Shown in pieces: positions 14,742 through 42,414 of a stretch of 53,853 bases of DNA. Position numbers and translations under genes: made by a program. Origin of the DNA: an uncultured Lachnospiraceae bacterium (lineage in GTDB: Bacteria > Bacillota > Clostridia > Lachnospirales > Lachnospiraceae); NCBI GenBank assembly GCA_947576945.1, contig CANPTH010000029.1:1-53853 (forward strand), read 5' to 3'. Every line of letters starts with the position of its first letter. Within the stretch, counting starts at the first letter, position 1. The notes beneath the pieces were generated by a model, which did no database searches, was not told where the DNA came from, and saw only the letters and a list, made by a program, of their open reading frames with translations.

Positions 14742-14812
14742 CAGGGGCAGTAGGAATCGAACCCACATCGATGGTTTTGGAGACCACTGTTCTACCTTTG
14801 AACTATGCCCCT
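14742..14812 (-). tRNA. tRNA-Trp (anticodon CCA)
   Basis: The minus strand folds into a complete 71-nt cloverleaf. The 7-bp acceptor stem is AGGGGCA with TGCCCCT, the D-stem GTTC/GAAC, and the anticodon stem GTGGT/ACCAT with loop CTCCAAA giving anticodon CCA. A 4-nt variable loop and a T-arm GTGGG-TTCGAAT-CCTAC complete it. The discriminator base is G, as usual for bacterial tRNA-Trp. The CCA end is not encoded. It has its own promoter (14851-14879) and terminator (14709-14728). Confidence 0.96.
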
Positions 14813-15183: not shown

Positions 15184-15212
15184 TTGACATTTTTTGAAAT
15201 GGAGATTATGAT
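15184..15212 (+). promoter_or_regulatory. Strong sigma-A promoter of the carbohydrate locus
   Basis: TTGACA (15184-15189), a 17-bp spacer and TATGAT (15207-15212) form a near-consensus promoter. The predicted start near 15219 gives a leader of about 187 nt before the regulator ATG at 15406. The leader contains the 12-bp palindrome ACAATATATTGT (15277-15288) and the candidate operator at 15314-15329. Confidence 0.75.
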
Positions 15213-15313: not shown

Positions 15314-15329
15314 TTTGGGTTAAACCAAA
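15314..15329. promoter_or_regulatory. Candidate operator 2, TTTGGGTTAAACCAAA
   Basis: A 16-bp near-palindrome (seven of eight pairs match) lies in the leader downstream of the promoter. It shares its core with the palindrome at 15072-15081, about 245 bp away centre to centre. Binding at both could loop the promoter or block elongation. Confidence 0.45.
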
Positions 15330-15405: not shown

Positions 15406-16464
15406 ATGAATAAAGAGAACAAAGAAATTGCAGATATCCTGCGTGAGGAAGTGAAACGGCTGCAGTCAGACCGATTGATCAAGCTGGAATCAGAAAGGAA
15501 ACTGGAACAGAGGCTTCAGGTGGGAAGGCAGCGGATCAGAGAAGTGATCAGCCAGCTGGTTTCCGAAGGGCTTCTTGTCAAGTATGAGGGAAAGGGAACC
15601 TATGTGGCTCCTATTGTGCATAATAAGTATATTAACCTGATCTGTTCGCCGACCATTAAGAGAAATGATCCTTTCTACAACAGAATGCTTATGGAGCTTA
15701 CCACCTACGCGGCAAAGAACAGTGTGAACATGATTCCCCTGACCATGGAATCGCTGGAGAACGGAGATGGGGGATCGCCGCTGCTGATCGTGGGGAAACT
15801 GGAGGAGGAACAGATCTGCAGGATACAGAAGGATTTTCTCAGAATTATTTCCTTTGAGAATTATCCTGATCATGATGATTTTATACAGATTTATTTTGAT
15901 CATTTCAAAATCGGCATCAATGCGGCCAAGGTCTTGGCTGGCTATGGACATAGAAAGGTGATTCATATCACTGGGCCGGACCGGTATGCTTCGGCGCTTT
16001 ATCGGAAGAATGGATTCATCCGCGGTGCGAGGAAAATCGGAATCGGATATGAGGTGCTGGAGAGCAAGATGAATTTCAGAGGCGGCGATGCACTTGCGGA
16101 TCAGGTTGCCAGTTTGGTGAAAGGCCATAAATTCACGGCAGTCTTTGCGGCCAATGACTGGATGGCGATCGGATTGATTCAGGGGCTTCGGGCAAAGGGA
16201 ATCGATGTTCCCGGGCAGGTATCCGTGCTCAGCGTGGATAACATTCCTCTGGCGGGGCAGTTCTCTCCGGCCCTCACCACCTATTCGCTGGATGCGAATA
16301 TTATGATTGCAGAATGCTTTTCGCTTATGGAGGAAGCGGAAAGAGAAATGCAGACGCATCCACGTGACAGGCAGATCTGCAGAAGAATTATCCTGCAGCC
16401 GGTTCTGATTACACGTGATACCTTAAGACGGATCGGTTATTCCGAAGGGCCGGACAATCATTGA
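15406..16464 (+). CDS. GntR-HTH / LacI-type sensor transcriptional regulator
   Basis: This 352-residue regulator joins a GntR-type winged HTH (about residues 1-70, with the RQRIREVISQLVSEGLL recognition region and the GKGTYVAP wing) to a periplasmic-binding-protein-like sugar sensor of the LacI family (about 78-345, with SVLSVDNIPLAGQFSPALTT). This domain pairing is the one seen in AraR. It normally acts as a sugar-responsive repressor. A longer frame begins at GTG 15340, but the ATG at 15406 has a clear AGAGGG site 4-5 nt upstream. It heads the carbohydrate locus and likely controls it through the operator pair upstream. Confidence 0.93.
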   Translation: MNKENKEIADILREEVKRLQSDRLIKLESERKLEQRLQVGRQRIREVISQLVSEGLLVKYEGKGTYVAPIVHNKYINLICSPTIKRNDPFYNRMLMELTTYAAKNSVNMIPLTMESLENGDGGSPLLIVGKLEEEQICRIQKDFLRIISFENYPDHDDFIQIYFDHFKIGINAAKVLAGYGHRKVIHITGPDRYASALYRKNGFIRGARKIGIGYEVLESKMNFRGGDALADQVASLVKGHKFTAVFAANDWMAIGLIQGLRAKGIDVPGQVSVLSVDNIPLAGQFSPALTTYSLDANIMIAECFSLMEEAEREMQTHPRDRQICRRIILQPVLITRDTLRRIGYSEGPDNH

Positions 16465-16545
16465 TGTGAAAGCGGGACGTAGATTTACAATCATGGGAGT
16501 GTCCCGGAGCGTGTACAGAAATTTTTTGAAAAGAAAGGAGATATT

Positions 16546-18597
16546 ATGAAGCACAAGAAGTTGATGGCATTGTTGTTGGCAACATGCATGGTTATGGGAA
16601 CGGTTGGCTGTGGCGGAGGTTCTTCGGCGCCGGCAGCGCCGCCTGCGGCAGACGGAGGCACAGACTCTGCGGCAGCGGACAATACGCAGGCGGAAAGCGG
16701 GAGTGCGGATGCCTCTGGCGCGACTTCAACAGGCGGCGATCTTGTAAGAGGCGGCGTGGGAGACGGTCAGTATAAAGAATCCCCGCTGATCCATGAGCTG
16801 GTGGAGAAAGGTGAACTTCCGCCCATCGAAGAGCGTCTGCCCAAAGAACCGGCAGTAGTGGAAGTGGATGAGATCGGCGTTTACGGAGGGACATATGTGG
16901 GAGCGGCATTTGGACCGACCAGCGGGCAGGTGGATACGGAATGCCTTCGTTATCAGTCGATTCTGACCATTGAGAAGGATCTGAAAACCTTTAAGCCGAA
17001 CTTAATCCAGAGTTTTGACGTCAATGAGGATTCCACCGAATTTACGATCCATCTGAGAGAAGGGATGAAATGGTCCAATGGCGATCCGTTTACTACGGCA
17101 GACTGGATGTTCTGGCTTGAGGATATTCTGCTCAATACGGACGTGAATGCGGCGGTGGATGCAGCATTCTGCAGTAACGGTATTCCCATGGCTTATGAGC
17201 CGGTGGACGACTATACGCTGGTGATCAGATTTGAGGAGTCCAATCCTGCGTTTGAAATCACCATGGCACGGTTTTCTACAGGATTGATCCGCAATTTCTT
17301 CGCACCGAAGGAGTATCTGCAGAAGTGGCACATTACATACAATCCTGATGCCGATAAGCTGGCGAAGGAAGAAGGATATGAATCCTGGATTCTGTGCTTC
17401 AAGGATCATCTTGATAACTCACAGTCCCAGAAGGATTGTGAAGCGCCTGATTTATACCCGTGGGTGCTGGATCGGATCGATACCAACGGCAATAAGTTCT
17501 TTGCACGCAATCCTTACTATCATGTCGTGGATCAGGAAGGAAATCAGCTTCCCTATATCGACGAGCAGGAAGCCATGATCGTACAGGATAAGGATGTCCG
17601 TAACTTAAAGCTGATCAGCGGCGAGATCCATGCGGCAGGTGAGAATCCTCTGCCGGTATCGGACTATACCATGCTGAAGGAAAATGAAGCGGCCGGAGAC
17701 TACCAGGTATTCCTGTTTGAAAATACCAGAGGATCTGACTGTGCGTTTACCTTTAATATCACGGATCAGAATCCTGACCTGAGAGAGGTCTTCACCAATG
17801 TGAAATTCCGGCAGGCAATGAGCCATGCGCTGGACCGCAACACGATCAACGAGACACTCTATTACGGAAAAGGAAGCGTGCGCCAGACGACGGCGTCTGC
17901 GGACACATCCTTTATGAAGGACGAGTTTGAGAACGCGTTTATAGAATATGATGTAGATAAAGCCAATGCGCTGCTGGATGAGTGCGGGTATGAATGGAAT
18001 GCGGCGCATACGGTAAGAATCATGCCAAACGGCGAGGAATTTAATATTATCCTGGAAACGATCGAGGAGTTCGTGCCTGTGGCTGAGATGGCCTGTGAAT
18101 ACTGGACTGCAGTGGGTGTGAAAGTTACTTTGAAGCAGGAAGAGCGGTCCTATTATCTGGAAAGAGGTAAGAACAACGAGCGTGATATGCAGGCATTTAC
18201 ATTGGACAGCGTAGGAGAATTTAACTTAAGAAGTGTGGCGTTCAGCCGCCTGCGTCCCGGCAATGCGTATGATGATCTGGAATTTATGCGCGCTTACAAG
18301 GACTACTGGGACAGTAATGGAAGTAAAGGGGAACAGCCTCCGGAAGACATTCAGCAGCTTTACGAGGATTGTCTGAAATTCGGCACTCTGACGAATACGG
18401 ATCCGGAATATGCGCCTCTTGGAGAGAGCATCCTGCAGAGAATCAGTGACCAGTGCTGGTTTATCGGGGTATCCGTATCTCCACGTCTTGTGATTATCAG
18501 CAACCGTCTGGGCAATACGCCTACGGAAGGAACCTTTGCAAACGACTATAATTTCTGGAAGCCGTTCAGAGGCGATACCTGGTACTTCAAATATTAA
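16546..18597 (+). CDS. Family-5 extracellular solute-binding lipoprotein
   Basis: This is a 683-residue substrate-binding protein for the ABC importer encoded next. It has a lipoprotein signal (MKHKK, hydrophobic run, VGC lipobox with Cys at about residue 24) and a low-complexity Ala/Gly/Asp linker to about 65. A large SBP_bac_5 domain follows, with the typical FTIHLREGMKWSNGDPFTTADW region near 165-185 and VKFRQAMSHALDR near 420. Family 5 is named for peptides and nickel, but members in sugar loci bind oligosaccharides. It is longer than the usual 530-550 residues. The start has AAAGGAG before ATG. A strong nested hairpin follows the stop. Confidence 0.94.
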   Translation: MKHKKLMALLLATCMVMGTVGCGGGSSAPAAPPAADGGTDSAAADNTQAESGSADASGATSTGGDLVRGGVGDGQYKESPLIHELVEKGELPPIEERLPKEPAVVEVDEIGVYGGTYVGAAFGPTSGQVDTECLRYQSILTIEKDLKTFKPNLIQSFDVNEDSTEFTIHLREGMKWSNGDPFTTADWMFWLEDILLNTDVNAAVDAAFCSNGIPMAYEPVDDYTLVIRFEESNPAFEITMARFSTGLIRNFFAPKEYLQKWHITYNPDADKLAKEEGYESWILCFKDHLDNSQSQKDCEAPDLYPWVLDRIDTNGNKFFARNPYYHVVDQEGNQLPYIDEQEAMIVQDKDVRNLKLISGEIHAAGENPLPVSDYTMLKENEAAGDYQVFLFENTRGSDCAFTFNITDQNPDLREVFTNVKFRQAMSHALDRNTINETLYYGKGSVRQTTASADTSFMKDEFENAFIEYDVDKANALLDECGYEWNAAHTVRIMPNGEEFNIILETIEEFVPVAEMACEYWTAVGVKVTLKQEERSYYLERGKNNERDMQAFTLDSVGEFNLRSVAFSRLRPGNAYDDLEFMRAYKDYWDSNGSKGEQPPEDIQQLYEDCLKFGTLTNTDPEYAPLGESILQRISDQCWFIGVSVSPRLVIISNRLGNTPTEGTFANDYNFWKPFRGDTWYFKY

Positions 18598-18604
18598 TTG
18601 CTTA

Positions 18605-18688
18605 CAGGAAAACGGCGGACACCCATAACTGCCATATTAATCGGGAAAGGAAGGCGCAGCCTGCGCCTTCCGCTATCCCGGTTTCCTG
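18605..18688 (+). other. Three-tier nested stem-loop between binding protein and permease genes
   Basis: The innermost stem is GGAAGGCGCA with TGCGCCTTCC (18649-18671, 10-11 bp, perfect). Around it are CGGGA (18642-18646) with TCCCG (18676-18680), and then CAGGAAA (18605-18611) with TTTCCTG (18682-18688). No T-run follows, so read-through is expected. Such intercistronic hairpins after a binding-protein gene typically protect its mRNA and raise its amount relative to the permeases. Confidence 0.75.
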
Positions 18689-18719
18689 ACAAAAGGGGAA
18701 AGGAGGAGATCAGAAGTAG

Positions 18720-19703
18720 ATGAGGAAATACATAGTTAAGAGATTTATCTATATGATCGTATTGCTGGCGATCATGTCGGTGTTTGCATTCGTGGTCATA
18801 CAGCTGCCGCCGGGCGATTATCTGACATCTTATATAGCCAGCCTGCAGCAGCAGATGGGAGAGGTGGATGAATCCGTGGTGCTCAATCTCAGAAAGCAGT
18901 ACGGAATGGACAGGCCTATGTGGCAGCAGTATTTTCTCTGGATGCGTAATATGTTCCAGGGGAATTTCGGAGAGTCTTTCCAATGGAGGCAGCCGGTGAA
19001 AACGCTGATTGCCACGAGAATGCCAATGACCATTGTCCTGTCTTTGATTACCCTGCTGTTTGCCTACGCGGTGGCGGTTCCGATCGGAATTTATTCCGCA
19101 AGACATCAGTACTCCATTGGCGATTATGTGGCGTCAATCCTGGGATTTGTCGGTCTGGCAACGCCAAGCTTTTTTCTTGCGCTGATTCTGATGTATTACA
19201 GTAACAGATATCTGGGACTGAGTGTGGGAGGTTTTTACTCTCCGGAATTTCAGAATGCGCCCTGGAGTTTTGCCAGATTGTGGGATTTGTGCAAGCATCT
19301 GCCCATACCGGTTATTGTCATCGGTCTGGCCAGTATGGCTAATGTGATCCGTATCCTCCGGGCTACGCTGTTGGACGAACTAAAGCGTCCTTATGTGGTA
19401 GCAGCCAGAGCCAGAGGGCTTAAGGAGAATAAAATGATCTACAGATATCCGGTACGTGTGGCGCTCAATCCCATTATCAGTTCTATCGGCAGCATTTTGC
19501 CTTCCATCGTATCCGGTGCAACAGTAACTGCGATCGTTCTGGATATTCCCACGGTGGGCTCTTTATTGTACAATGCGCTGCTCTCCCAGGACATGTATCT
19601 GGCAGGCGCATGCGTGATTATGCTGACGGCGATCACTATTGTAGGAACCTTTATTTCGGATATTCTGTTGGTGGTGGTTGATCCGAGAATCCGGCTGCAG
19701 TAA
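18720..19703 (+). CDS. ABC importer permease, DppB/OppB type
   Basis: This 327-residue inner-membrane permease has an N-terminal helix (about 10-30), then a periplasmic-side segment with the GMDRPMWQQYFLW motif typical of OppB/DppB. About five more helices follow, and the EAA-like loop (ARARGLKENKMIYRYPVRVALNP, about 226-248) contacts the ATPase. The AGGAGG ribosome site is strong. It is the first permease of the importer, downstream of the nested hairpin. The partner permease follows after 59 bp. Confidence 0.94.
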   Translation: MRKYIVKRFIYMIVLLAIMSVFAFVVIQLPPGDYLTSYIASLQQQMGEVDESVVLNLRKQYGMDRPMWQQYFLWMRNMFQGNFGESFQWRQPVKTLIATRMPMTIVLSLITLLFAYAVAVPIGIYSARHQYSIGDYVASILGFVGLATPSFFLALILMYYSNRYLGLSVGGFYSPEFQNAPWSFARLWDLCKHLPIPVIVIGLASMANVIRILRATLLDELKRPYVVAARARGLKENKMIYRYPVRVALNPIISSIGSILPSIVSGATVTAIVLDIPTVGSLLYNALLSQDMYLAGACVIMLTAITIVGTFISDILLVVVDPRIRLQ

Positions 19704-19762
19704 GAGACTACAAATTATAATGCCGTCCACTGCGGCGGGATGGCAAGGAAGGAGAATATCAC

Positions 19763-20887
19763 ATGGCCCTGTTTAAAAAGAAGAAGGCCAAAGTTTCCAT
19801 GGAAGAGGCAATGTATATGGAAACACAGGCACAGTTGATCTGGAGAAAATTTAAAAAGCATAAGCTGGCGATGGCAGGAATGGTTATCCTGATCATTCTC
19901 TATCTGGTTGGCTTCTTCAGTGAATTTTTTGCCACGCAGGACATTGCAAAGAGAAGCACGACTGCGATCAGTATGGCGCCGACGAAGATCCACTTTGTGG
20001 ATGCGGAGGGGAATTTTTCCCTGCAGCCTTTTGTCTATGGATTAAAGCAGGAGGAGGATCCTGTCACCTGGCGTAAGTATTATGTGGAGGATACCACGCA
20101 GAAATACCCGTTACAGTTTTTTTACCACGGTGATCCTTACAAACTTTTAGGCTTTATACCGGGAGATATTCACTTTTTCGGCACACCTCAGCCGGATGTG
20201 TTTTTTCCCTTCGGAACAGATCTTTCGGGGAGAGATCTGTATTCCAGAGTGCTCAGTGCGCTGCGGATTTCCCTGACAACTGGTCTGGTGGGTGTATTCT
20301 TCACCTTTATTCTGGGGTGTCTGTTTGGGGGAATTTCCGGTTTCTACGGAGGCATAGCGGATACGATCATTCAGAGAGTCATTGAATTCCTGATGTCTAT
20401 GCCCAGCATTCCGCTCTGGATGGCATTGGCTGCAGCGTTTCCGTCTACATGGTCTTCACTTCAGACTTATTTTGCGATTACGATCATCCTGTCACTGATC
20501 GGATGGACCAGCCTGGCGAGAGTGGTGAGAGGTAAACTTCTGGAGCTGAGAAACGAAGATTTCGTGACGGCTGCCAGAGTGGCCGGGGCAAGCGACGGCT
20601 ATATTATCACCAAGCATCTGCTTCCGTCCTTCAGCAGTTACCTGATCGTCAATGTAACTCTGGCAATTCCGGGCATGATCCTGTCGGAGACTTCGCTCAG
20701 CTTTCTGGGCATCGGTCTTACGCCGCCCATTGTCAGCCTTGGCGTGCTTCTGCAGGATGCGCAGAGTATCAACACGGTTTCCATGTATCCCTGGATGATG
20801 ATCCCCGGTCTCTTTGTGGTCATCGCAGTTCTGGCTTTCAACTTTGTGGGAGACGGCCTGCGGGATGCGGCGGATCCATACAAATAA
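19763..20887 (+). CDS. ABC importer permease, DppC/OppC type, with enlarged external loop
   Basis: This 374-residue permease starts with a basic cytoplasmic segment (LFKKKKAKVS) and an N-terminal helix at about 35-55. An unusually long extracytoplasmic segment of about 100 residues follows (about 56-160). It contains the FGTDLSGRDLYSRVLSALRISL motif that starts the core domain, and then five helices with the EAA loop TAARVAGASDGYIITKHLLP. Dipeptide DppC is about 300 residues, so the extra loop is a clear difference and may touch a bulky substrate or the large binding protein. The ATPase gene follows after 15 bp. Confidence 0.94.
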   Translation: MALFKKKKAKVSMEEAMYMETQAQLIWRKFKKHKLAMAGMVILIILYLVGFFSEFFATQDIAKRSTTAISMAPTKIHFVDAEGNFSLQPFVYGLKQEEDPVTWRKYYVEDTTQKYPLQFFYHGDPYKLLGFIPGDIHFFGTPQPDVFFPFGTDLSGRDLYSRVLSALRISLTTGLVGVFFTFILGCLFGGISGFYGGIADTIIQRVIEFLMSMPSIPLWMALAAAFPSTWSSLQTYFAITIILSLIGWTSLARVVRGKLLELRNEDFVTAARVAGASDGYIITKHLLPSFSSYLIVNVTLAIPGMILSETSLSFLGIGLTPPIVSLGVLLQDAQSINTVSMYPWMMIPGLFVVIAVLAFNFVGDGLRDAADPYK

Positions 20888-20902
20888 GAGACAGGAGGGA
20901 TT

Positions 20903-21889
20903 ATGAACGAATATATCTTACAGGTTAAAAATCTAAAGACATGGTTCAGGCTGGATACGGGAACCCTGAAAGCCGTAGATGACGTGACTTTCTCCCTGAA
21001 ACGCAACGAGACCATCGGGATTATCGGGGAGTCCGGCTGCGGCAAGAGCGTGACGGCCCACTCCATTCTGCGCACGGTCCAGAACCCGGGAAAGGTGCTG
21101 GGAGGGGAGATTCTGTATGATGACGGAAGCAGGCTGGCAGATCTGGTGAACTATAAACCGGACAGCAGGGAGATGCGGCATCTTCGGGGCAGGGAGATTT
21201 CCATGATCTTTCAGGAACCCATGGCCAGCCTGGCCCCTGTTTACACCATAGGCGCTCAGATGATGGAGGCTGTGATGGTGCATCAGGACAAAAAAGACAA
21301 AATGGCGGCAAAGGATGCGTGCATGGAAATGCTGCGGGCCGTGGGAATGCCTGATCCGGAACAGAAATTTAACAGCTATCCGCATCAGATGTCAGGCGGT
21401 CAGTGCCAGCGTGCCATGATTGCCCTTGCCATGGTAAACCGGCCCAGAATCCTGATTGCAGATGAGCCGACTACGGCTCTGGATGTGACCGTACAGGCCC
21501 AGATCACTGATCTGATGAAACGCTTTCAGAAAGAATACAATATGTCCATAATCTATATTACGCATGATATGGGCGTGATTGCGGAGATGGCGGACACCAT
21601 TGCCGTGATGTATCTGGGACGGGTGGTAGAGAGCGGAAGCGTAAAGGCAATCTTTCAGAATCCGCTCCATCCGTATACAAGAGGCCTGTTGAAATCCATG
21701 CCGGTGCTGGGCAACAAGACGGGGGAGAAGCTGAATGCGATAGAAGGAAATGTTCCGGTACCGCTGGATCCGCCTGAAGAATGCGGGTTCTGTTCACGCT
21801 GTCCGAACCGGACGCCTGAATGCGGCGCAGGGATACCATCCCTTAAGGAAGTGGAACCAGGACATCTGGTCAGATGCTTCCATGTATAG
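20903..21889 (+). CDS. ABC importer ATPase, OppD/DppD type
   Basis: This 328-residue cytoplasmic ATPase has Walker A GESGCGKS (about 40-47), Q-loop IFQEPMASL, signature MSGGQCQRAMIALA, Walker B LIADEPTTALDV and H-loop YITHDMG. The C-terminal extension of the oligopeptide transporter family carries the Cys cluster CGFCSRCPNRTPEC. It pairs with the OppF-type ATPase encoded 72 bp downstream. Start: GACAGGAGGG before ATG. The two ATPases and two permeases make a complete importer core. Confidence 0.95.
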   Translation: MNEYILQVKNLKTWFRLDTGTLKAVDDVTFSLKRNETIGIIGESGCGKSVTAHSILRTVQNPGKVLGGEILYDDGSRLADLVNYKPDSREMRHLRGREISMIFQEPMASLAPVYTIGAQMMEAVMVHQDKKDKMAAKDACMEMLRAVGMPDPEQKFNSYPHQMSGGQCQRAMIALAMVNRPRILIADEPTTALDVTVQAQITDLMKRFQKEYNMSIIYITHDMGVIAEMADTIAVMYLGRVVESGSVKAIFQNPLHPYTRGLLKSMPVLGNKTGEKLNAIEGNVPVPLDPPEECGFCSRCPNRTPECGAGIPSLKEVEPGHLVRCFHV

Positions 21890-21961
21890 AAGCATGCGGA
21901 ATAATAACGATAAGATTCCCGGATAAAATGGCTGTGCATTGACAGCGGAAATGGAGGAAAG

Positions 21962-23002
21962 ATGTCGGAAATTGACAAGAACACCCAGCCATTGCTGGAA
22001 ATAACAGGATTAAAGAAACATTATCCGATCGAAGCCGGTATTGCCAAGAAGCAGGTAGGGCTGGTAAAGGCCGTGGATGATGTAACGCTCAGTATCCGCC
22101 GAAACGAGGTTTTGGGCGTGGTGGGAGAGTCCGGCTGCGGCAAGACTACTCTGGGCAGAACCATATTGAGGATTATAGAGCCTACGGAGGGAAGCATAAA
22201 ATTTCATTTTGACGGAAAGGAAATTGATTTCATTTCGCTGGATAAGAAAGCGCTTCGCGGCATGCGGCGCCATATACAGATGATTTTCCAGAATCCGTAT
22301 ACCTCATTGAATCCCCGCATGACGATCTTTGACATTGTTGCAGAACCCATGCGGCTGGCAGGAGATTATACGGAGGACGAGATTTCTGACCGTGTGAGGG
22401 ATCTGATTGGCAAGGTGGGACTGGAAGTGAAGCATTTAAACAGATATCCTCATGCATTCAGCGGCGGACAACGGCAGAGAATAGGAATTGCGAGAGCGCT
22501 GGCTCTGGGTCCGAGGTTCGTGGTGGCAGATGAAGCAGTGTCGGCTCTGGATGTGTCCATCCAGGCTCAGATCCTGAATCTTCTGCAGGAACTGAAGGAA
22601 GAGTATGATCTGACCTACATGTTCATTGCGCATAATCTGAGTGTGGTGGAGCATATTTCGGACCGGGTCTGTGTGATGTATCTGGGCAGGGTTGCGGAAC
22701 TTTCGGAGACGGAGGAACTCTTTTACCATCCCATGCATCCTTATACGGAGGCGCTGCTTTCTGCAATTCCCGTTGCGGATCCTACGGTGAAGAACGAGCG
22801 CATCGTAATGCCCGGAGAGGTGGGCAATGCGGCGAATCTGCCTTCCGGATGCTGTTTTCATCCCAGATGCAGATATGCACAGGAATGCTGCAGGAAGGAA
22901 TGTCCTCCGCTTAGGGAAGCAGCGCCCGGACACTTTGTGGCGTGTCATTTTGCAGACAGCCTGAAACTGAACGGAATCGGAGAACTTAAAATCAAAAATT
23001 AG
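21962..23002 (+). CDS. ABC importer ATPase, OppF/DppF type
   Basis: The second ATPase of the importer has 346 residues. It has Walker [10 protein letters not shown]-loop [13 protein letters not shown], signature [15 protein letters not shown], Walker [13 protein letters not shown] (Ala in place of the usual Pro) and H-loop FIAHNLS. The C-terminal Cys-rich element ([14 protein letters not shown]) is again that of the Opp/Dpp family. GGAGGAAAG precedes the ATG. The glycosidase gene begins 19 bp after its stop, tying transport to hydrolysis. Confidence 0.95.
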
Positions 23003-23021
23003 AATATGGAGGAAGACCACA

Positions 23022-24683
23022 ATGAGTAACCGGGTAACAGTAAAAGTTGATGCAGGAAAAACAACAGGGGAGCAGGAGCATTTATGGCGCTGGATCGGAT
23101 ATGACGAATGCAACTATACCTACATTCCCGAAGGAAAAGAACTGCTGCGTAAGTTTGCGGCTCTTGGAGATGCCCCCTACTATGTGAGAACTCATTTTAT
23201 GTTTTGCACGGGCAACTGCCACGGAACATACAAATTCGGTTCCACGAATGTTTATTGGGAAAATGAGGCGGGAGAGGCTGTCTATGATTTTACCTGGTAT
23301 GACAGGATTATTGACGCCTACCTGGAGACGGGCAACAAACCGTTTGTAGAGCTTGGTTTTATGCCTATGGATCTGGTGGACACCGCTTATCTTAAGACCA
23401 TGGACAAGGGAAACTGGGAGAGATACGGCCAGTATAAAGAGATTGGCTGGACCTGTCCGCCTAAGGATTATGACAAGTGGCATGATTTTATTGAGGCAGT
23501 CATCAGCCATCTCAAAGAGCGTTATGGAGAGAAGGAGATAGAGACATGGTACTATGAGCTGTGGAACGAGCCGGATATTTTCTACTGGAGCGGTACAACG
23601 GCGGAGTATTGTAAGCTGTATGATTACACGGAGCATGCATTACATAAGGCGGCCCCTGGCGCCAGATTGTCAGGACCTGCCGTAACGGGTATTTTTGAGG
23701 GCGGCCGCGCACAGAAATTCTTTGACTATTTCCTGGAGCATTGCAGCGGGGGAGTGAACTTCTGCACGGGTGAGAAGGGAACCAGACTGGATTTCATCAC
23801 TTTCCACGTTAAAGGAGGCGGATTCCCCTTCGAGATGCATGCGCCCAAGGCAGTACCTTCCGTGGAAAGCCTGGTGCATCAGGTGAAGGTAGGCCTGGAC
23901 TCGATTGTCAGATACGGATACCAGGACCGGGAAGTGGTGCTTTCCGAGGCGGATCCGGACGGCTGGGCAGCAGGCGGCGTGTATGACAACACAAATATGA
24001 GATTCCGCAACACGGAGTATTATGCGACTTATGTGGCGTCCACCTACGAGAAGATTGATCAGCTTTGTACACGCTATGGCGTTAAAGTCCGTCCGCTTGC
24101 ATGGGCGTTCATGTTCCCGGGAGAGAGATGCTTTGAGGGAACCAGGACTTTTTCCACTCAGGGAATCGATAAGGCGGTGTTCAATATGTTCCGTATATAT
24201 GGCACGCTGGGATACAGGAAGCTGGCGTTTGAGAGTGACGGCGCACAGTCCATGGATTTCCTGAAGGAGCCGGAAATCGGTAAGAAAGAGCACAGCAGAT
24301 ATACGGGTGAGGGGGAAGCGACTGACGTGTCCGGCTTTGCGGTACAGGGCGCCAATGGCGAGACACAGATCGTGGTTTACAGCCACTGCAATGATATAGA
24401 CAAGAAGGAAGAGACGGAGATTACGCTTAATGTGTCAGGGCTTGCCGGGGAGACGGTCAGTGTGGAGCATTACCGTATTGATTCGGAGCATTCCAATGCC
24501 CATGCGGAATGGATGCGCCAGGGGCAGCCTCTGTTCCCGGAGGGAGAGCAGTATGCAGCCATCAAGAAGAGAGACGGTCTGGAGAAGCTTTCACAGGATG
24601 CTGTGCTTGCTACGGCGGACGGAAGCCTGGAACTGAAATTTACCATGCCGACACACGGCGTTTCCTATCTGGTAATCAAATAG
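23022..24683 (+). CDS. Intracellular GH39-like glycoside hydrolase
   Basis: This 553-residue enzyme resembles family GH39 (beta-xylosidase and alpha-iduronidase type). A TIM barrel spans about residues 20-420, with a C-terminal beta domain. The acid/base Glu sits in the family motif WNEPD (residues 181-185, Glu183). The likely nucleophile is Glu309 in VVLSEADPDG. There is no signal peptide, so it should act in the cytoplasm on imported substrate. The SEADPDG context differs from the xylosidase form I know (a TEFN-like motif), so specificity is uncertain. The start follows ATGGAGGAAGACC and is only 19 bp after the ATPase gene. Confidence 0.88.
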   Translation: MSNRVTVKVDAGKTTGEQEHLWRWIGYDECNYTYIPEGKELLRKFAALGDAPYYVRTHFMFCTGNCHGTYKFGSTNVYWENEAGEAVYDFTWYDRIIDAYLETGNKPFVELGFMPMDLVDTAYLKTMDKGNWERYGQYKEIGWTCPPKDYDKWHDFIEAVISHLKERYGEKEIETWYYELWNEPDIFYWSGTTAEYCKLYDYTEHALHKAAPGARLSGPAVTGIFEGGRAQKFFDYFLEHCSGGVNFCTGEKGTRLDFITFHVKGGGFPFEMHAPKAVPSVESLVHQVKVGLDSIVRYGYQDREVVLSEADPDGWAAGGVYDNTNMRFRNTEYYATYVASTYEKIDQLCTRYGVKVRPLAWAFMFPGERCFEGTRTFSTQGIDKAVFNMFRIYGTLGYRKLAFESDGAQSMDFLKEPEIGKKEHSRYTGEGEATDVSGFAVQGANGETQIVVYSHCNDIDKKEETEITLNVSGLAGETVSVEHYRIDSEHSNAHAEWMRQGQPLFPEGEQYAAIKKRDGLEKLSQDAVLATADGSLELKFTMPTHGVSYLVIK

Positions 24684-24746
24684 ACCTGTGCGGCGAAACC
24701 GGCAGTAGAGATATGAGCCGTATACAGCGGCGGAATGCGAGGAAAT

Positions 24747-25424
24747 ATGAGTAAAGATTTGAGTAAAAAGACATTGGGAATCATTCATGCATCCCATATC
24801 ACGATCAAGGCAATGGAACCCTACATTCAGCAGTTCATCCCGGAGGTGCAGATTATGCACCTGTGCGACGACACGATTCAGAGGGATAACATCAAGGCGG
24901 GCGCGGGCGTGATCCCGAAAGTGAATTATTATAAATTTGCGCAGTATGCACACAATCTGGAGGAGGCAGGCGTTGATCTGATCCTGCTTGCATGCTCCAC
25001 GTTCAATTATGCAGCAGAGCTGGGAAGACCCCTTATCAATGTACCCATTGCCCAGATTGACCGTCCCATGATGGAAAAGGCGGTGCGGACGGGAAAGAAG
25101 ATCGGGCTTCTGGCAACCCTTGCCACCACGGTGCCTTCTTCCGAGCGCCTTCTGGATATTGCGGCGGCGGAGGCCGGTGTGGAGATCGAGAGAAAAACCG
25201 TTCTGTGCAGCGAGGCTTTTGAGGAGTATTCCAGGGGAAATATCGAGCGTCACAATGAGATTCTGGTGGAGGCAATTGACAGTCTTTCGAGAGAAGTGGA
25301 TTGCATCGTGATGGCGCAGCTTTCCATGTCGGCGCTGGCCCCGTACCTGAAGGATACAAAGGTGCCGGTGTATAACAGCGGAGAGACAGGATTTCTCAGG
25401 GTGCGCAGTATGCTGGAGGAATGA
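24747..25424 (+). CDS. Asp/Glu racemase-superfamily protein with a single catalytic cysteine
   Basis: This protein of about 225 residues has the two-domain Asp/Glu racemase fold. The first catalytic cysteine is present in LLACSTFN (Cys83). The position that normally holds the second cysteine (the GCT motif of true racemases) reads MAQLSM, with Gln191 instead. Loss of one of the two acid-base thiols argues against plain amino-acid racemisation. Single-cysteine relatives such as arylmalonate decarboxylase do other enol chemistry. The location between a glycosidase and a transketolase suggests a sugar-acid or keto-acid substrate. The start at 24747 follows GCGAGGAAAT; an in-frame ATG at 24735 is also possible. 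Confidence 0.8.
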   Translation: MSKDLSKKTLGIIHASHITIKAMEPYIQQFIPEVQIMHLCDDTIQRDNIKAGAGVIPKVNYYKFAQYAHNLEEAGVDLILLACSTFNYAAELGRPLINVPIAQIDRPMMEKAVRTGKKIGLLATLATTVPSSERLLDIAAAEAGVEIERKTVLCSEAFEEYSRGNIERHNEILVEAIDSLSREVDCIVMAQLSMSALAPYLKDTKVPVYNSGETGFLRVRSMLEE

Positions 25425-25454
25425 TGAAAGTAACACAGGCAAGGCATAGCGCGT

Positions 25455-25475
25455 CCGCTGCGCAGAGTGCAGCGG
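25455..25475 (+). other. Intercistronic hairpin before the transketolase genes
   Basis: CCGCTGC and GCAGCGG form a 7-bp GC-only perfect stem around a 7-nt loop. It lies in the roughly 120-bp gap between the racemase-like gene and the transketolase N-terminal gene. No T-run follows. It probably affects mRNA stability or the ratio of upstream to downstream products. Confidence 0.5.
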
Positions 25476-25544
25476 CGCCGTGCAGTCTGCCTGCATGAGT
25501 GCAGCCTATGGGGTGCAGGTATGAAGAAAGGAGAAGTGAAAGCC

Positions 25545-26372
25545 ATGTTAGAAGCAGTAGAGAAGCAACGGCTGGAGGAGATGGCGAAGGAGATCAGAAA
25601 GGATATCGTTACCATGATCGGTGTGGGAAAGGCCGGTCATCTGGGTGGATCCTGTTCTTTGGCTGATATCGTGTCCGTACTTTATTTCTATAAGATGAAT
25701 CACGACCCGTCCGATCCGAAGAAGAAGGAAAGGGATCGTTTTCTGCTAAGCAAAGGGCATGCGGCCATCGTGCAGTATGCGGCGCTGATGGAAAGCGGAT
25801 ACTTTGATAAGGAGGAATCGATTCACACCTTGAAGAAACTGGGCAGTCATCTGCAGGGGCACCCGGATATGAGAAAGCTTGCGGGTATTGAGGCCAATAC
25901 CGGTTCTCTGGGACAGGGCGTATCCCTGGCCGCCGGACTGGCTGCAGGCCTGAAGCTGGACGGCCTGGAGTCGAAGGTGTATGTGGCGGTGGGCGACGGG
26001 GAACTGGCGGAAGGCCAGATCTGGGAAGCCTTTATGGCGGCATCCAATTTTGAGCTGGACAATCTGCGGGTCATCATTGACAGAAACGGTCTGCAGGCCA
26101 CAGGAAAGACGGCGGATCGTTTCCGGATCGGGGATCTGGAGGGAAAGATGAAGGCATTCGGATTTGAGGTGACGGTTGTAGACGGCCATGATGTGGAAGC
26201 GGTTGCGCAGGCGCTGGATCAGGCGGATACCGTGAAGAAGAAACCGGTCTGCATCATTGCCGACACAGTAAAAGGAAAAGGGATTCCGTTTGCGGAGGGT
26301 ATCGCTTCCTTCCATAACGGTACACTCACACAGGAACAGTATGACGAAGCGCTGCGTGTATTGGCAGGTTAG
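25545..26372 (+). CDS. Split transketolase, N-terminal (TPP-binding) subunit
   Basis: This 275-residue subunit carries the pyrophosphate-binding half of transketolase. GHLGGSCS lies near residue 28 and the SKGHAA motif near 68. The thiamine diphosphate signature runs from GDGELAEGQIWEA to DRNGLQATG, about 150-190. Transketolases move two-carbon ketol units between sugars. The split two-gene form is common in Firmicutes and archaea for housekeeping and for specialised catabolic enzymes such as apulose-phosphate transketolase. AAAGGAG lies 11 nt before the ATG at 25545; upstream in-frame ATGs at 25521 and earlier have weaker sites. Confidence 0.93.
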   Translation: MLEAVEKQRLEEMAKEIRKDIVTMIGVGKAGHLGGSCSLADIVSVLYFYKMNHDPSDPKKKERDRFLLSKGHAAIVQYAALMESGYFDKEESIHTLKKLGSHLQGHPDMRKLAGIEANTGSLGQGVSLAAGLAAGLKLDGLESKVYVAVGDGELAEGQIWEAFMAASNFELDNLRVIIDRNGLQATGKTADRFRIGDLEGKMKAFGFEVTVVDGHDVEAVAQALDQADTVKKKPVCIIADTVKGKGIPFAEGIASFHNGTLTQEQYDEALRVLAG

Positions 26373-26378
26373 TTTCGC

Positions 26379-27341
26379 ATGTCAAGCAGGAATGGGGGAT
26401 TAAAATTGGGAACACATAATCAAAGGGTGGAATACGGGAAAAAATTAGTGGAACTGGGCGGAAAAAATGCAGATATCGTGGTGTTGGAAGCTGATCTGGG
26501 AAAATCCACCATGAGCAGTCTGTTTGAGGAAGCGTTTCCGGACCGGTATTTTGAGATGGGAATTGCGGAGCAGAATATGACCAGCTTTGCAGGAGGTCTG
26601 GCGTTGGCGGGAAAGATTCCTTTTACCAACACTTTTGCAGTGTTTGCTTCGGGAAGAGCTTACGATCAGATTCGTCAGAGCATTGCCACAGCTAAACTGA
26701 ATGTGAAGGTGGTAGGATCCAGTTCGGGTATGTCCGATTTCGGGGACGGCGCCACCCATCAATCCATCGATGACGTGGCTATTATGAGCGCTGTCCCGAA
26801 TATGACGGTTTTCACTCCCTGCGACGGGATAGAGACAGGACTGGCCGTTGAAGCGGCAGCAGCCCTTGACGGGCCTTGTTATATCAGGCTGTGCAGAAAT
26901 GATCTGGAGGATATCTATCCGGTGCAGGCGGGCTATCGGATCGGCGAACCCGTGGCGCTTAGAGAGGGCGTGGACGTTGCGGTCTACACACATGGTATCA
27001 TGGCCCATGCGGCGCTTGCGGCTGCACAGATGGCACAGGAAGAAGGAATCAGCGCCGCTGTGATTCATATCCCCACCATCAAGCCTTTGCGTGAGGATCT
27101 GGTCAGGAAACTGGCTGAAGGAAAGAAGGGTGTGGTGGTCTGTGAGGAGGCAAGCATCCAGGGCGGGCTGAATATGCTGGTCAGCTATATTCTTCGGGGA
27201 ACCGGGATTCCGGTGGAGAGTATGGCGGTGATGGATGTGTTCGGGCAGTCCGGGTCTTCTCATCAGGAGCTTCTTGCATACTATGAGCTGGATGCCGAAA
27301 GCGTGCTGAAGAAGATCCGAAAAGCAGTTGTTCTTCCGTAG
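26379..27341 (+). CDS. Split transketolase, C-terminal (pyrimidine-binding) subunit
   Basis: This 320-residue partner of the previous subunit starts 6 bp after its stop. It shows VVLEADLGKST near 30 and the catalytic glutamate motif MGIAEQNM near 65, which activates thiamine diphosphate. The FASGRAYDQIRQSIA segment follows. A C-terminal transketolase domain begins at about 195. The ATG at 26379 has a weak ribosome site. A TTG at 26406 after GGGGGATTAAAA would also fit and removes nine residues. Translational coupling to the N-subunit is likely. Confidence 0.93.
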   Translation: MSSRNGGLKLGTHNQRVEYGKKLVELGGKNADIVVLEADLGKSTMSSLFEEAFPDRYFEMGIAEQNMTSFAGGLALAGKIPFTNTFAVFASGRAYDQIRQSIATAKLNVKVVGSSSGMSDFGDGATHQSIDDVAIMSAVPNMTVFTPCDGIETGLAVEAAAALDGPCYIRLCRNDLEDIYPVQAGYRIGEPVALREGVDVAVYTHGIMAHAALAAAQMAQEEGISAAVIHIPTIKPLREDLVRKLAEGKKGVVVCEEASIQGGLNMLVSYILRGTGIPVESMAVMDVFGQSGSSHQELLAYYELDAESVLKKIRKAVVLP

Positions 27342-27410
27342 GTTGTCGGTGACGCTTCGGAAAAAATGGCAGGAAATACATATATTATGACAGAAGGGAG
27401 TTTGCAAAGT

Positions 27411-28295
27411 ATGAAACTTGGATTTATAGGTCTTGGAATTATGGGAAAACCCATGGCAAAAAATCTGCTTAAGGCGGGTTATGAACTGAATATCTGCGAT
27501 ATTAACCAGGAGGCTGTAAAAGAAGTGGAGCAGGCAGGCGGCGTGGCATGCAGGACTTCAAAGGAGGTGGCGCAGAGCAGTGACATTATCTTTACCATGC
27601 TTCCCAATTCGCCGCATGTAAAGACGGTTATTCTGGATAAAGACGGTGTGCTTGAGGGAATGAAACCCGGCGCCATTGTGGTTGATATGAGTTCCATTGA
27701 TCCCAATGTATCCATTGAACTTGAGAAAGCAGTTGATGCGGCAGGAGGACGCATGATAGATGCACCTGTCAGCGGAGGGGAACCAAAAGCGATTGACGCC
27801 ACGCTCTCCTTTATGTGCGGCGGTGAGCAGGAGGTATTTGACCAGGTGAAGCCGATTTTGGAGAAGATGGGCGCTTCCGTAGTCCTGGTAGGCCCTGTGG
27901 GAAGCGGAAACATGACCAAGCTGGCAAATCAGATTATCGTTGCCGTTAATATTGCGGCGCTGTCTGAGGCGCTGGTTCTGGCAGCAAAGTCCGGTGTCAA
28001 TCCGGAAAACGTGTATAAGGCAATCCGCGGAGGCCTTGCAGGCAGCACGGTTATGGATGCGAAGGCGCCCATGATGCTGGACCGCAATTTCGATCCTGGT
28101 TTCCGGATTGAACTTCATATAAAGGATCTGACCAATGCCATGAATGCTTCCCAGTCGGTTGATATGGAACTTCCGATGACTGAGAAGGTTCTGGAGATGA
28201 TGAAGATCCTGGCGGAAGAAGGCATGGGAAAATGCGATCACAGTGCGGTGCTGCGTTACTATGAGGAGCAGGAGAGCGTTGAGGTAAAGAGATAG
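27411..28295 (+). CDS. Beta-hydroxyacid dehydrogenase (GarR / 3-hydroxyisobutyrate dehydrogenase family)
   Basis: This 294-residue NAD(P)-dependent enzyme has exactly the length of tartronate semialdehyde reductase. The Rossmann motif GFIGLGIMGKPMAKNL (about 4-19) is followed by the substrate motif DAPVSGGEPKA (about 119-129) and GNMTKLANQ (about 166-174) with the catalytic Lys. The family reduces or oxidises small beta-hydroxy acids: tartronate semialdehyde, hydroxyisobutyrate, sulfolactaldehyde. I chose the ATG at 27411 because AGAAGGGAG precedes it; the frame opens earlier at 27366. The next gene starts directly at its stop. Tartronate semialdehyde is a reasonable guess, not shown by sequence. 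Confidence 0.93.
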   Translation: MKLGFIGLGIMGKPMAKNLLKAGYELNICDINQEAVKEVEQAGGVACRTSKEVAQSSDIIFTMLPNSPHVKTVILDKDGVLEGMKPGAIVVDMSSIDPNVSIELEKAVDAAGGRMIDAPVSGGEPKAIDATLSFMCGGEQEVFDQVKPILEKMGASVVLVGPVGSGNMTKLANQIIVAVNIAALSEALVLAAKSGVNPENVYKAIRGGLAGSTVMDAKAPMMLDRNFDPGFRIELHIKDLTNAMNASQSVDMELPMTEKVLEMMKILAEEGMGKCDHSAVLRYYEEQESVEVKR

Positions 28296-29087
28296 ATGAA
28301 GCTGGGTTGTTGTCTGAATATGTTGGGAAACAGCGGGGATCCTGTTGGGCGCAGCTATATCGGGGCGGCACAGAAGGCGGGGTATGATTATGTGGAGCTT
28401 CCCCTTGCGCAGGTCATGGAGCTTGACAGACAGGGATTTGACGGACTGCTTGAACAGCTTAGGGAAAGCGGAATCTGCTGCAGGGCCTGCAATAACTTTT
28501 TCCCGGCTTCGGTGAGGCTGACCGGCGGAGATGTGCGGCCCGGTAAGGTAAAGGATTATCTGCAAAGAGCCGTGGAACGGGCGTCCATGCTGGGCGCTGA
28601 GGTGATCGTGTTTGGAAGCAGCGGGGCTAAGAATGTGCCGGAGGGATTTGACCGTAAGAGGGCGTGGGAGCAGATCGCAGATACTCTCAGATGGGCGGAT
28701 GCCTGTACTCTTGCGGCAGGGATCCGGATCGCAATAGAGCCGCTGAACAGACAGGAAAGCAATATCATACTGAATCTGACCGAGGGGGAAGAGCTGAGGA
28801 GGATGGCGAAGGTTCCGTCTGTCCGCCTTCTGGTGGATTACTATCATTTTACCATGGAAGCGGAAGAAACAGAGACGCTTCGGAAGCGGATGCCTGAGAT
28901 CGCACATGTACATTTTGCCGAACCGGAAGGAAGAAGTTTTCCGGAGCGGCCAAAGGAGCAGTATGAGAGATTCTTTCAGATACTCCGCGCCGGAGGATAC
29001 GACGGACTGGTCAGTGTGGAGGCCTATGCGAAGGAGCCGGAGCAGGCTCTGAGAAGGGCAGTGTTTTTAAGAGAATATTTTGAATGA
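28296..29087 (+). CDS. TIM-barrel sugar isomerase/epimerase (xylose isomerase-like)
   Basis: This 263-residue protein belongs to the AP-endonuclease-2/xylose-isomerase-like superfamily. The four metal ligands typical of the tagatose-3-epimerase and hydroxypyruvate-isomerase branch are visible: Glu in IEPLNR (about 147), Asp in LVDYYHF (about 180), His in HVHFAEPEGR (about 206) and Glu in SVEAY (about 241). It begins at the base after the stop of the dehydrogenase gene, so the two are coupled. Paired with a GarR-like enzyme, hydroxypyruvate isomerase is one option, and a ketose 3-epimerase is another. It is the last gene before a strong terminator. Confidence 0.9.
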   Translation: MKLGCCLNMLGNSGDPVGRSYIGAAQKAGYDYVELPLAQVMELDRQGFDGLLEQLRESGICCRACNNFFPASVRLTGGDVRPGKVKDYLQRAVERASMLGAEVIVFGSSGAKNVPEGFDRKRAWEQIADTLRWADACTLAAGIRIAIEPLNRQESNIILNLTEGEELRRMAKVPSVRLLVDYYHFTMEAEETETLRKRMPEIAHVHFAEPEGRSFPERPKEQYERFFQILRAGGYDGLVSVEAYAKEPEQALRRAVFLREYFE

Positions 29088-29093
29088 AAGTCG

Positions 29094-29133
29094 AAAGAGG
29101 GGGCTGTGCCGTATGTGGCACAGCCTCCTCTTT
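29094..29133 (+). terminator. Strong terminator closing the carbohydrate locus
   Basis: A 17-bp stem (AAAGAGGGGGCTGTGCC with GGCACAGCCTCCTCTTT, one G-U pair) has a 6-nt loop and a TTTATC tail. It begins 7 bp after the isomerase stop codon. It marks the 3' end of a roughly 14-kb co-directional gene set. Confidence 0.9.
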
Positions 29134-29341
29134 ATCGATTCTTCTTTATCGGCGCCTGCAGGGACATGGTGTGATGTTCCATGTGACGGCAGCTTAGTAC
29201 AGCATTGCGTAATCAGCAGTGAAATGCGCGAAACAAAATGTGAGGAGGATCTGTCACCTTTATATGGACAGATGCGTGTTCTATACAGCAGGGCAGACAA
29301 GGGAAGAACAGAGCTGCAGGAGATGACAGCCCTGGGAACCA

Positions 29342-34849: not shown

Positions 34850-35124
34850 CTGTCTTTCCTTTGCTTTCTGCGTTTCCTGTAACCCCTAATCGCTTATTCT
34901 ATAGAAATAACTGATTCTATCATACAAAAGTTTAACGCCGTCTTCAATCAATGATGATGCCGGCATTTCCGCATGCCTTTTGTGCATAGTCTGCTGGTAT
35001 TTTCCGGTGATTTGTGATACTATTACTTTCGTCACTGAATGCATGGTCTCTGGCAGGATCCTGCAGACTGACAGTTCAACTACAGGATATCCGTACGGAC
35101 ATTGTCCGGCGGACCAATCACAGA
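34850..35124. other. Divergent intergenic region
   Basis: This 275-bp gap separates the ECF sigma gene (minus) from the helicase gene (plus). It contains the 10-bp palindrome TTCTATAGAA near 34896-34905. The heptamer ATTCTAT occurs twice nearby, which on the minus strand gives -10-like ATAGAAT words. On the plus side TGTGATACTAT near 35013-35023 resembles an extended -10. The promoters are tentative. Confidence 0.4.
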
Positions 35125-39443: not shown

Positions 39444-39527
39444 AAGGTAAAGTCCTTTCTTTGTCTGCCGGTTTGCCGCGTCCCGGAGAGGGATGCGGTA
39501 AGCGGTGTTTTTTGCTGTCAGGCGCTG

Positions 39528-40523: not shown

Positions 40524-40602
40524 GGCACAAAGATTCCTTTCGCTGCGGGTTGTTTTGTCTGTGGTCGTTCCGGCTGCATGGGACAGCGATACAGTGTCGG
40601 CG

Positions 40603-40616
40603 TGTAAGTATTTACA
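40603..40616. promoter_or_regulatory. LacI-type operator, lacI-uxaC side
   Basis: TGTAA-GTAT-TTACA is a palindrome with 5-bp arms. It lies just downstream of the predicted start of the minus-strand promoter (about 40620), where a bound repressor would block the lacI-uxaC transcript. The arms equal those of the second operator at 40770-40787. Confidence 0.7.
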
Positions 40617-40626
40617 TCATATTTCT

Positions 40627-40655
40627 ATTATAACATTTGCATTGAGGAGTGCAAT
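40627..40655 (-). promoter_or_regulatory. Promoter of lacI-uxaC
   Basis: On the minus strand a perfect extended -10 (TGTTATAAT, TATAAT at 40627-40632) lies 16-17 bp from a partial -35 (TTGCAC or ATTGCA near 40650). The start near 40620 is followed at once by the operator at 40603-40616. Confidence 0.6.
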
Positions 40656-40739
40656 CTACATTTTATTGTGATAATAGCTAATTTTATGCGGAACTATTTA
40701 TACAATATAACAAAAAAGTGCGATGACAGGAAGAAACGG

Positions 40740-40768
40740 TTGACTTTGAGATTGGAAAAAGATAAATT
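40740..40768 (+). promoter_or_regulatory. Promoter of uxaA-uxaB
   Basis: TTGACT (40740-40745), a 17-bp spacer and TAAATT (40763-40768) point to uxaA. The expected start near 40775 falls inside the second operator (40770-40787), which fits direct repression. Confidence 0.55.
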
Positions 40769-40769
40769 G

Positions 40770-40787
40770 AATGTAAATGCTTACATT
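40770..40787. promoter_or_regulatory. LacI-type operator, uxaA side
   Basis: AATGTAA-ATGC-TTACATT is an 18-bp palindrome with perfect 7-bp arms. Its core TGTAA-N4-TTACA is the same as at 40603-40616. It overlaps the likely uxaA transcription start. Confidence 0.75.
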
Positions 40788-40843
40788 TTAAAAAGCTCAG
40801 GGTCGAAAGAACCCGGTACAGGGCAGGAAAGGACAAAAGATCA

Positions 40844-42352: not shown

Positions 42353-42414
42353 AAGCGGAGGATTGCCGGGCGTTTGGACGGTTGTGAGCAGGAGCAGAAA
42401 GGAATAGGGACGAA

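Follow-up and report, generated by a model that had tools for sequence, protein, structure and literature searches.

The 53,853-nucleotide stretch analysed here (the window; contig CANPTH010000029.1 of assembly GCA_947576945.1, from an uncultured Lachnospiraceae bacterium) carries an operon of 12 same-strand (+) genes at positions 15406-29087, delimited from sequence and family models, the two chains of a split transketolase (TK) being counted separately. We propose, at a probability of about one half, that this is an inducible operon for an acidic glycoside, in which a TK with an altered head-group motif (RSFSR) leaves an acid semialdehyde that a tartronate-semialdehyde reductase (GarR) turns into glycerate, the kinase being encoded elsewhere. 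Each catalytic step of the proposed route is a prediction from families and motifs: a family-5 ABC importer would bring in the acidic glycoside; a GH39 glycosidase would cut it in the cytosol to a uronic-type sugar acid; a racemase-fold protein and a TIM-barrel protein resembling ketose 3-epimerases would convert the sugar acid to a keto-acid acceptable to the TK; the TK would transfer a two-carbon ketol from the keto-acid onto a sugar phosphate to form xylulose 5-phosphate, the remainder being an acid semialdehyde (in the simplest case tartronate semialdehyde, if the keto-acid has five carbons); and GarR would reduce this to D-glycerate, for conversion to 2-phosphoglycerate by a glycerate kinase whose gene lies elsewhere in the genome. 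An initial annotation, made from the letters alone, had pictured imported glycosides cut inside the cell and a sugar processed to a two-carbon unit and a hydroxyacid. The importer and cytosolic hydrolase are now supported as a unit by their conservation in other genera; the second part is plausible by way of the TK, with glycerate as the hydroxyacid (from the GarR cut-offs) and the substrate refined to an acidic sugar.

Of central importance to this proposal is the transketolase. Its N chain (25515..26372, +, alternative start 25467; PF00456) and C chain (26379..27341, +; PF02779 and PF02780) are the thiamine pyrophosphate (TPP) chain and the pyr/C chain of a split TK, the closest solved structures being 6yaj/6yak (264 and 259 bits, the latter for the N chain with 6yak). 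According to a published report, the phosphate is oriented in two ordinary transketolases by a motif RSFHR, and the sulfofructose enzyme has RAFDR (PMC11659671). The C chain in the window has R16, S43, F86, S115 and R173, hence RSFSR, which, as in the fetched members of its clade, is neither the RSFHR of ordinary sugar-phosphate enzymes nor the RAFDR of SqwGH. Eight operon-type C chains were aligned, and each of them has Ser at the His place; used as a query against 397 genomes of the family, the alignment gave matches in 277, and the motif was read in 30 fetched loci (designated by L numbers throughout). The scores leave a gap between 13 copies in 12 genomes (E <= 1e-142) and the remainder (from 3e-112 on), partly a product of the profile, which was built from the RSFSR clade itself. 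All 12 fetched loci above the gap, the window being one, read RSFSR, and all 18 below it have His (14 RAFHR, 3 RSFHR and 1 RSYHR); RSFSR was also read in L092, L093, L095, L097, L120, L183 and L184. Because the His-type chains vary at other places of the motif, the His place alone separates the two groups. The missing sugar kinase would fit such a changed head-group site. A housekeeping role for the enzyme in the window was considered and rejected: the genome has a separate His-type split TK (L002, RAFHR).

The dehydrogenase gene that follows (27411..28295, +) scores above both cut-offs for tartronate-semialdehyde reductase (NF008592, 459.5 vs 397; TIGR01505, 409.3 vs 340.75), and the RSFSR clade travels with this enzyme. 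GarR lies on the same strand and at most 265 bases from the C chain in 16 of 19 RSFSR loci (the window and 18 others), lies 1.5 kb off, beyond two other genes, in L230, and was not found near the TK in L226 and L120. Beside His-type transketolases it occurs in none of 18 loci, with 1.5 kb searched on each side. The partners of the TK-GarR pair include the following: in L221 a GntP-like permease (270.8 bits, just below the cut-off of 292.75), a zinc dehydrogenase, a homologue of the TIM-barrel protein and a glycerate kinase; in L224 a TRAP transporter (binding protein 241.8 vs cut-off 175.05), a short-chain dehydrogenase (SDR) and a TIM homologue; in L231 a zinc dehydrogenase and a TIM homologue (the three homologues are 41-43% identical to ours); and in L225, L183 and L184 carbohydrate importers, SDR and GH43. 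Gluconate 5-dehydrogenase and KduD are close to the SDR of L183, L224 and L225, which score below both cut-offs. Neighbours read by eye include SDR in L184, L222, L223, L227 and L230, a GH3-like gene in L223, TRAP genes in L226, AEC transporters, GH38 in L232, and in L222 a GH29-like gene for which there was no NCBIfam match.

Two further observations bear on the chemistry. Firstly, among the 13 RSFSR loci without GH39, 10 have an SDR or zinc dehydrogenase (identified with a family library in 5 and by eye in the other 5), and none has a racemase-fold gene at E <= 0.001. The six with GH39 (window, L092, L093, L095, L097 and L120) all have the racemase-fold gene, and inspection by eye showed neither an SDR nor a zinc dehydrogenase in them; in L120 there is a gene resembling aldo-keto reductases. 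Since the two kinds of gene exclude each other, these few loci suggest that both may deliver the keto-acid, the dehydrogenase through oxidation and the racemase-fold protein through isomerisation. Secondly, glycerate kinases recur. A PF02595 enzyme follows the last operon gene in L093 and an unrelated one (DUF4147 and MOFRL) in L092, a locus with a CdaR-type sugar-diacid regulator upstream, separated by a transposase-like gene. The initial annotation's statement that there is neither kinase nor aldolase thus holds for the operon in the window but not for these two orthologous ones. The PF02595-like kinase of L221 shares 54-56% identity with its counterparts in L073 and L232, and L073, a more distant racemase and TK cluster, combines its kinase with a 2-hydroxyacid dehydrogenase. 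In the genome of the window a single glycerate kinase of family PF02595 is encoded, on contig C47 outside the operon, and none of the DUF4147 type; this kinase would complete the route. Because GarR and these kinases point to glycerate as product, the TK would leave a three-carbon semialdehyde, and its donor would therefore be a five-carbon keto-acid. A C5 sugar acid is accordingly favoured over a C6 one, which is possible too. The kinase on C47 (L232, G000 contig C47:20000-33328) adjoins a GH38-like gene and a carbohydrate importer, by eye, and this locus looks like mannosylglycerate use.

Anaerobic Firmicutes, together with at least one Treponema, may share a general, kinase-free "carboxy-transketolase" degradation of sugar acids, of which the operon would be one form; this is a tentative proposal that we rate somewhat short of even odds. 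RSFSR transketolases would take a C2 ketol from unphosphorylated keto-sugar acids and hand tartronate semialdehyde to a co-inherited GarR, being fed either by dehydrogenases, for free aldonates entering by GntP-like or TRAP transporters, or by a glycosidase together with a one-cysteine racemase-fold uronate isomerase. If so, carboxylated sugars would join sulfonated ones as substrates of kinase-free TK catabolism; Ser for His at the head group would serve, within one clade, as a marker separating sugar-acid from sugar-phosphate transketolases in annotation; and a racemase-fold family found repeatedly near sugar-acid genes of gut and rumen bacteria would gain a role.

The sulfo-TK pathway of sulfoquinovose (SqvD, SqwGH, SqwI), as described in its report, combines probable ABC import, isomerases and a kinase-free split TK in anaerobic gut bacteria, moves C2 units to glyceraldehyde 3-phosphate and, in one variant, has an end reductase (PMC11659671). 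Our operon shares these features, the altered head-group motif included. It differs, as far as that description goes, in its motif (RSFSR, not RAFDR), in the charged group (a probable carboxylate, not a sulfonate), in the fate of the product (a glycerate kinase here, excretion there), and in GH39, racemase-fold and 3-epimerase-like proteins that have no counterpart there. A literature search, covering titles and abstract openings with most subscription papers outside its coverage, returned no TK route for sugar acids with GarR. The glycerate pathway (gcl-hyi-glxR-glxK, garPLRK) also has tartronate-semialdehyde reductase and glycerate kinase, accompanied by a TPP enzyme and a TIM barrel of the AP_endonuc_2 family; here, in contrast, the operon has no aldolase, the TK would take the TPP step, and the TIM barrel falls short of the Hyi cut-off. 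Glyoxylate carboligase was considered as the feeder of GarR and set aside: none of its four matches in the genome is above the cut-off of 711.2.

The racemase-fold protein (24747..25424, +, start perhaps 24735; PF01177) departs from the Asp/Glu racemases, which have two catalytic cysteines. C83 is kept, while Gln191, invariant in 12 of 12 rows of the alignment, stands where glutamate racemase 3hfr and aspartate racemase 1jfl have their second Cys. We propose that it is a uronate isomerase or epimerase. Of 31 family-genome matches to distant racemase clusters, 15 were fetched and scanned, and 4 of the 15 have TK. Some distant relatives of the protein have sugar-acid or hydroxyacid surroundings, in which TK and kinase plus aldolase are alternatives. 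L186 combines a DUF1537-like kinase (56.7 bits vs cut-off 450) and a class II aldolase with a dehydrogenase of GarR type above cut-off and, by eye, a GntP-like permease, an arrangement that resembles the DUF1537 kinase/aldolase pathways for four-carbon acid sugars, whereas the operon in the window has a TK where those have kinase and aldolase. L190 has a DUF1537-like kinase and an aldolase (by eye); L187 a TTT-type transporter, a TK and a 2-hydroxyacid dehydrogenase; and L188 and L189 LarA-like genes (by eye). The racemase-fold gene was also seen, by eye in part, beside split transketolases outside the RSFSR clade in L187, L073, L083, L087 and L075; their His-place residue is His in L073 and L083, Tyr in L087 and Asp in L075, and some of these five clusters have TTT or TRAP transporters and 2-hydroxyacid dehydrogenases.

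The TIM-barrel protein (tim; 28296..29087, +; PF01261) falls below the cut-offs of all seven NCBIfam models that it matched. The initial annotation had linked it to hydroxypyruvate isomerase (Hyi), an assignment that we reject (TIGR03234, 62.9 bits vs 353.45). IolO, the 5-keto-L-gluconate epimerase (NF041099, 72.3 vs 300), and psicose epimerase (56.2 vs 300) are likewise far from their cut-offs, but share its fold family. Residues E148, E154, D181, H184, H206, R213 and E242, invariant in the seven rows of the alignment, make up the full set of metal and substrate residues of ketose 3-epimerases (DTE/DPE), which places the protein in that superfamily by residues. Transketolases are selective at the carbon on which a 3-epimerase acts, so such an enzyme ahead of the TK would make sense.

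The glycosidase (23022..24683, +) belongs to GH39 (PF01229, 165.5 bits vs cut-off 26) and has, as initially annotated, no N-terminal signal visible by eye. E183 (in WNEP) and E309 (in SEADPD), which by position we take to be the two catalytic glutamates, are kept in 38 of 38 rows. So is K264, which stands in an H262-x-K264-G motif within an ungapped 29-residue match to human alpha-L-iduronidase, where K264, D349 and R363 are the carboxylate-binding residues; this lysine suggests an acidic sugar as substrate. The predicted structure (predicted local distance difference test, pLDDT, 92.7) has GH39 xylosidases and iduronidases as nearest folds, with the bacterial iduronidase orthologue 5ndx at Foldseek rank 1. 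The human enzyme and 5ndx share the GH39 fold and the H-x-K-G motif with our protein but only 19-24% identity over the fold.

The operon is conserved beyond its own genus. The GH39 alignment was used as a profile on genome contigs, and 80 of 503 relatives were taken as loci. Eisenbergiella tayi (L093) retains the complete set of 12, in unchanged order and with identities of 62-93%; L092 has 11 of 12; L095 has 11 of 12 in a rearranged order, the TK-GarR-TIM part lying upstream of the importer; Treponema L120 has 10 of 12 (reductase and regulator were not found); and L097 has 8 of 12. Absence of the unit from relatives, which the initial annotation had named as the outcome that would undo its proposal, is thus not what the neighbourhood survey returned. 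Over the 80 loci, the racemase-fold gene was found in 13, TIM in 11, operon-type TK in 5 (a 33% match to the N chain in L103 not being scored as such) and GarR in 4; because of these counts, GH39, racemase-fold and TIM genes, often with the importer, are the core, and TK with GarR is a second module. In the two Anaerocolumna genomes (L099, L138) neither TK nor GarR lies beside GH39, and each has an RSFSR TK with GarR at a separate locus; this second locus also carries a sugar importer, GH43, an FCD-type GntR regulator and an SDR.

The distribution is sporadic, since a search of 76 further genomes of the genus gave no racemase-fold orthologue (two distant matches at 32% and 28%), nor did one of 396 other genomes of the family (best E 5.4e-32, identity at most 35%), and the profile matched, among 391 genomes of the class, besides the window only G957 (the genome of L097) and six distant sequences. 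Viral contigs gave 11 pattern matches for the racemase-fold protein, none of them a relative. Near the GH39 genes of G204 and G233 (51-55%), ATPase matches, weak ones, were all that was found of the operon, and Bacteroidetes and other distant GH39 genes (about 36% identity; 7 loci inspected) have mixed neighbours. AEC-family transporter genes adjoin GH39 in L103, L104 and L098 (bifidobacteria and a Lachnospiraceae genome; by eye), which may mean a small anionic glycoside or aglycone. A GH31 gene of L097 was tried as sulfoquinovosidase and rejected (PRK10426, YihQ, 134.7 vs 553).

Several points weigh against the proposed route. Serine at the His place also occurs outside the clade, L004 of the same genome reading RSPSR. 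The racemase gene was not seen in 67 of the 80 GH39 loci, some of which are on short contigs, and close GH39 genes occur without the operon in L091 (77%) and L098 (68%). The acidic substrate is deduced from K264 by one motif; the alignment to xylosidase 1px8 opens a gap and pairs a Lys there; R375, present in all 37 readable rows, pairs not with R363 of iduronidase but with another Arg, in a weak match that also has no visible D349 equivalent; and the fold Z is higher to GH39 xylosidases (36.0-36.8) than to iduronidases (31.3-33.7). As to chain length, tim is nearest IolO or psicose epimerase and the zinc enzyme of L221 nearest IolM, all far below cut-off, and IolO and IolM act on six-carbon compounds; five-carbon uronides are not known to be common natural products.

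These last points lead to the best of the alternatives, a six-carbon version, which we consider unlikely. Here GH39 would be an iduronidase or glucuronidase, the hexuronate would become a hex-5-ulosonate, and the TK would leave a tetruronate. This would either be a substrate for reduction by the GarR-like enzyme or undergo isomerisation and a second cleavage to glyoxylate, on the model of the sulfo-TK route. The iduronidase-type motif and the IolO likeness of tim speak for it, as do a uxuA gene near the operon in Treponema L120, the dehydrogenase beside racemase and TK in L187, nearest glyoxylate reductase (407.6 vs cut-off 455), and a set of hexuronate genes 9-15 kb downstream in the window (38037-43947): uxaC (636.7 bits vs 387, the sole uxaC match in the genome), a LacI-type regulator, a uxaA-like member of the galactarate/altronate dehydratase family, and a uxaB-like tagaturonate reductase (614.3 vs 359). 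However, an authentic tartronate-semialdehyde reductase and glycerate kinases of two families would be left unexplained, and because the standard hexuronate route is already at hand in the window, a second one for glucuronate or galacturonate would be needless and a different acid is favoured for the operon.

It is improbable that glycerate is instead the aglycone, a glycosyl-glycerate being hydrolysed, its glycerate phosphorylated or oxidised by GarR, and hydroxypyruvate used by the TK. The glycerate kinases of the two orthologous operons and, by eye, that beside a GH38-like gene on C47 would suit this scheme, but the TK-GarR pair is also found where no glycosidase was seen, in L221 and L224, next to transporters of GntP-like or TRAP type and dehydrogenases of the SDR or zinc kind, and the racemase-fold and 3-epimerase-like genes would have no explanation. 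Apiose or a neutral pentose, isomerised and cut by the TK as in the known apiose route, is very improbable. The initial annotation had drawn this parallel from the split TK, and a TIM-barrel isomerase-like gene is also part of that route; but the apiose route uses an apulose kinase with its split TK, and here the operon has no kinase gene, the TK has no phosphate-site His, a neutral sugar would yield no substrate for GarR, and K264 suggests an acid. Slightly less probable still is that the genes are neighbours by chance, a TK of housekeeping function having come to lie with unrelated enzymes after a sugar importer: GH39, racemase with tim, and TK with GarR do occur apart, but this idea is already disfavoured by the synteny of 12 genes out of 12 in another genus, by the separate L002, and by the two Anaerocolumna genomes, both of which have the pieces on two loci. 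A sulfonated, sulfoquinovose-like sugar degraded via the sulfo-TK route is the least probable, since, for all the common logic of a split TK without kinase (PMC11659671), the motif is RSFSR and not RAFDR, the reductase reaches 192.9 bits vs a sulfolactaldehyde reductase cut-off of 348, and orthologous operons have glycerate kinase. The linkage does not match either: GH39 acts on beta-D or alpha-L linkages, and sulfoquinovose is alpha-D-linked.

The control elements agree with an operon under its own regulator. This protein, with a GntR head (PF00392) and a LacI-type body (PF13377, Peripla_BP_3), is encoded at 15406..16464 (+). Upstream lies a sigma-70-like promoter (TTGACA-17-TATGAT, 15184..15212, +) with 11 of 12 consensus matches, bearing out the near-consensus promoter of the initial annotation; it is the best of 26 sites in the scan, a number that is not unusual (expected 19.1, standard deviation 4.4), and L093 and L090 likewise have TATTGACA ahead of their orthologous regulator. 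The leader contains a near-palindrome, TTTGGGTTAAACCAAA (15314..15329, +), a probable operator by its conservation upstream of orthologous regulators. This is its single exact copy in the genome; its 14-base core precedes the orthologous regulator in L090, L093 and L138, with one mismatch in L099, and is in none of the other 234 loci compared. Because the near-palindrome is unique in the genome and its core recurs at orthologous regulators, it points to a local, probably self-controlled operon. Downstream, at 29088..29140 (+), a terminator-like hairpin (-37.6 kcal/mol, z -8.07) is more stable than any of 200 shuffles; the strong terminator annotated here is right as to the hairpin, but its T-tract is weak and a simple terminator scan did not list it. 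A tRNA gene on the - strand (14742-14812), immediately upstream of the operon, is a possible insertion site for a sporadic operon.

The importer comprises a family-5 solute-binding protein (16546..18597; PF00496, 193 bits), two permeases (18720..19703, PF00528 and PF19300; 19763..20887, PF00528 and PF12911) and two ATPases (20903..21889 and 21962..23002), all on the + strand. Pfam and NCBIfam models support 10 of the 12 genes; the two ATPases were assigned by inspection of their sequences and from orthologues at the matching positions of L093 and, for the first, of other loci. Pfam, NCBIfam and open-reading-frame reading confirm the coordinates, strand and protein families given initially, and the count of eleven genes is correct if the split TK is counted once but otherwise becomes 12. 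Elsewhere in the window (35014-37239) lies a gene for a Suv3-type DEXQ helicase (PF22527, 211 bits), here in a bacterium.

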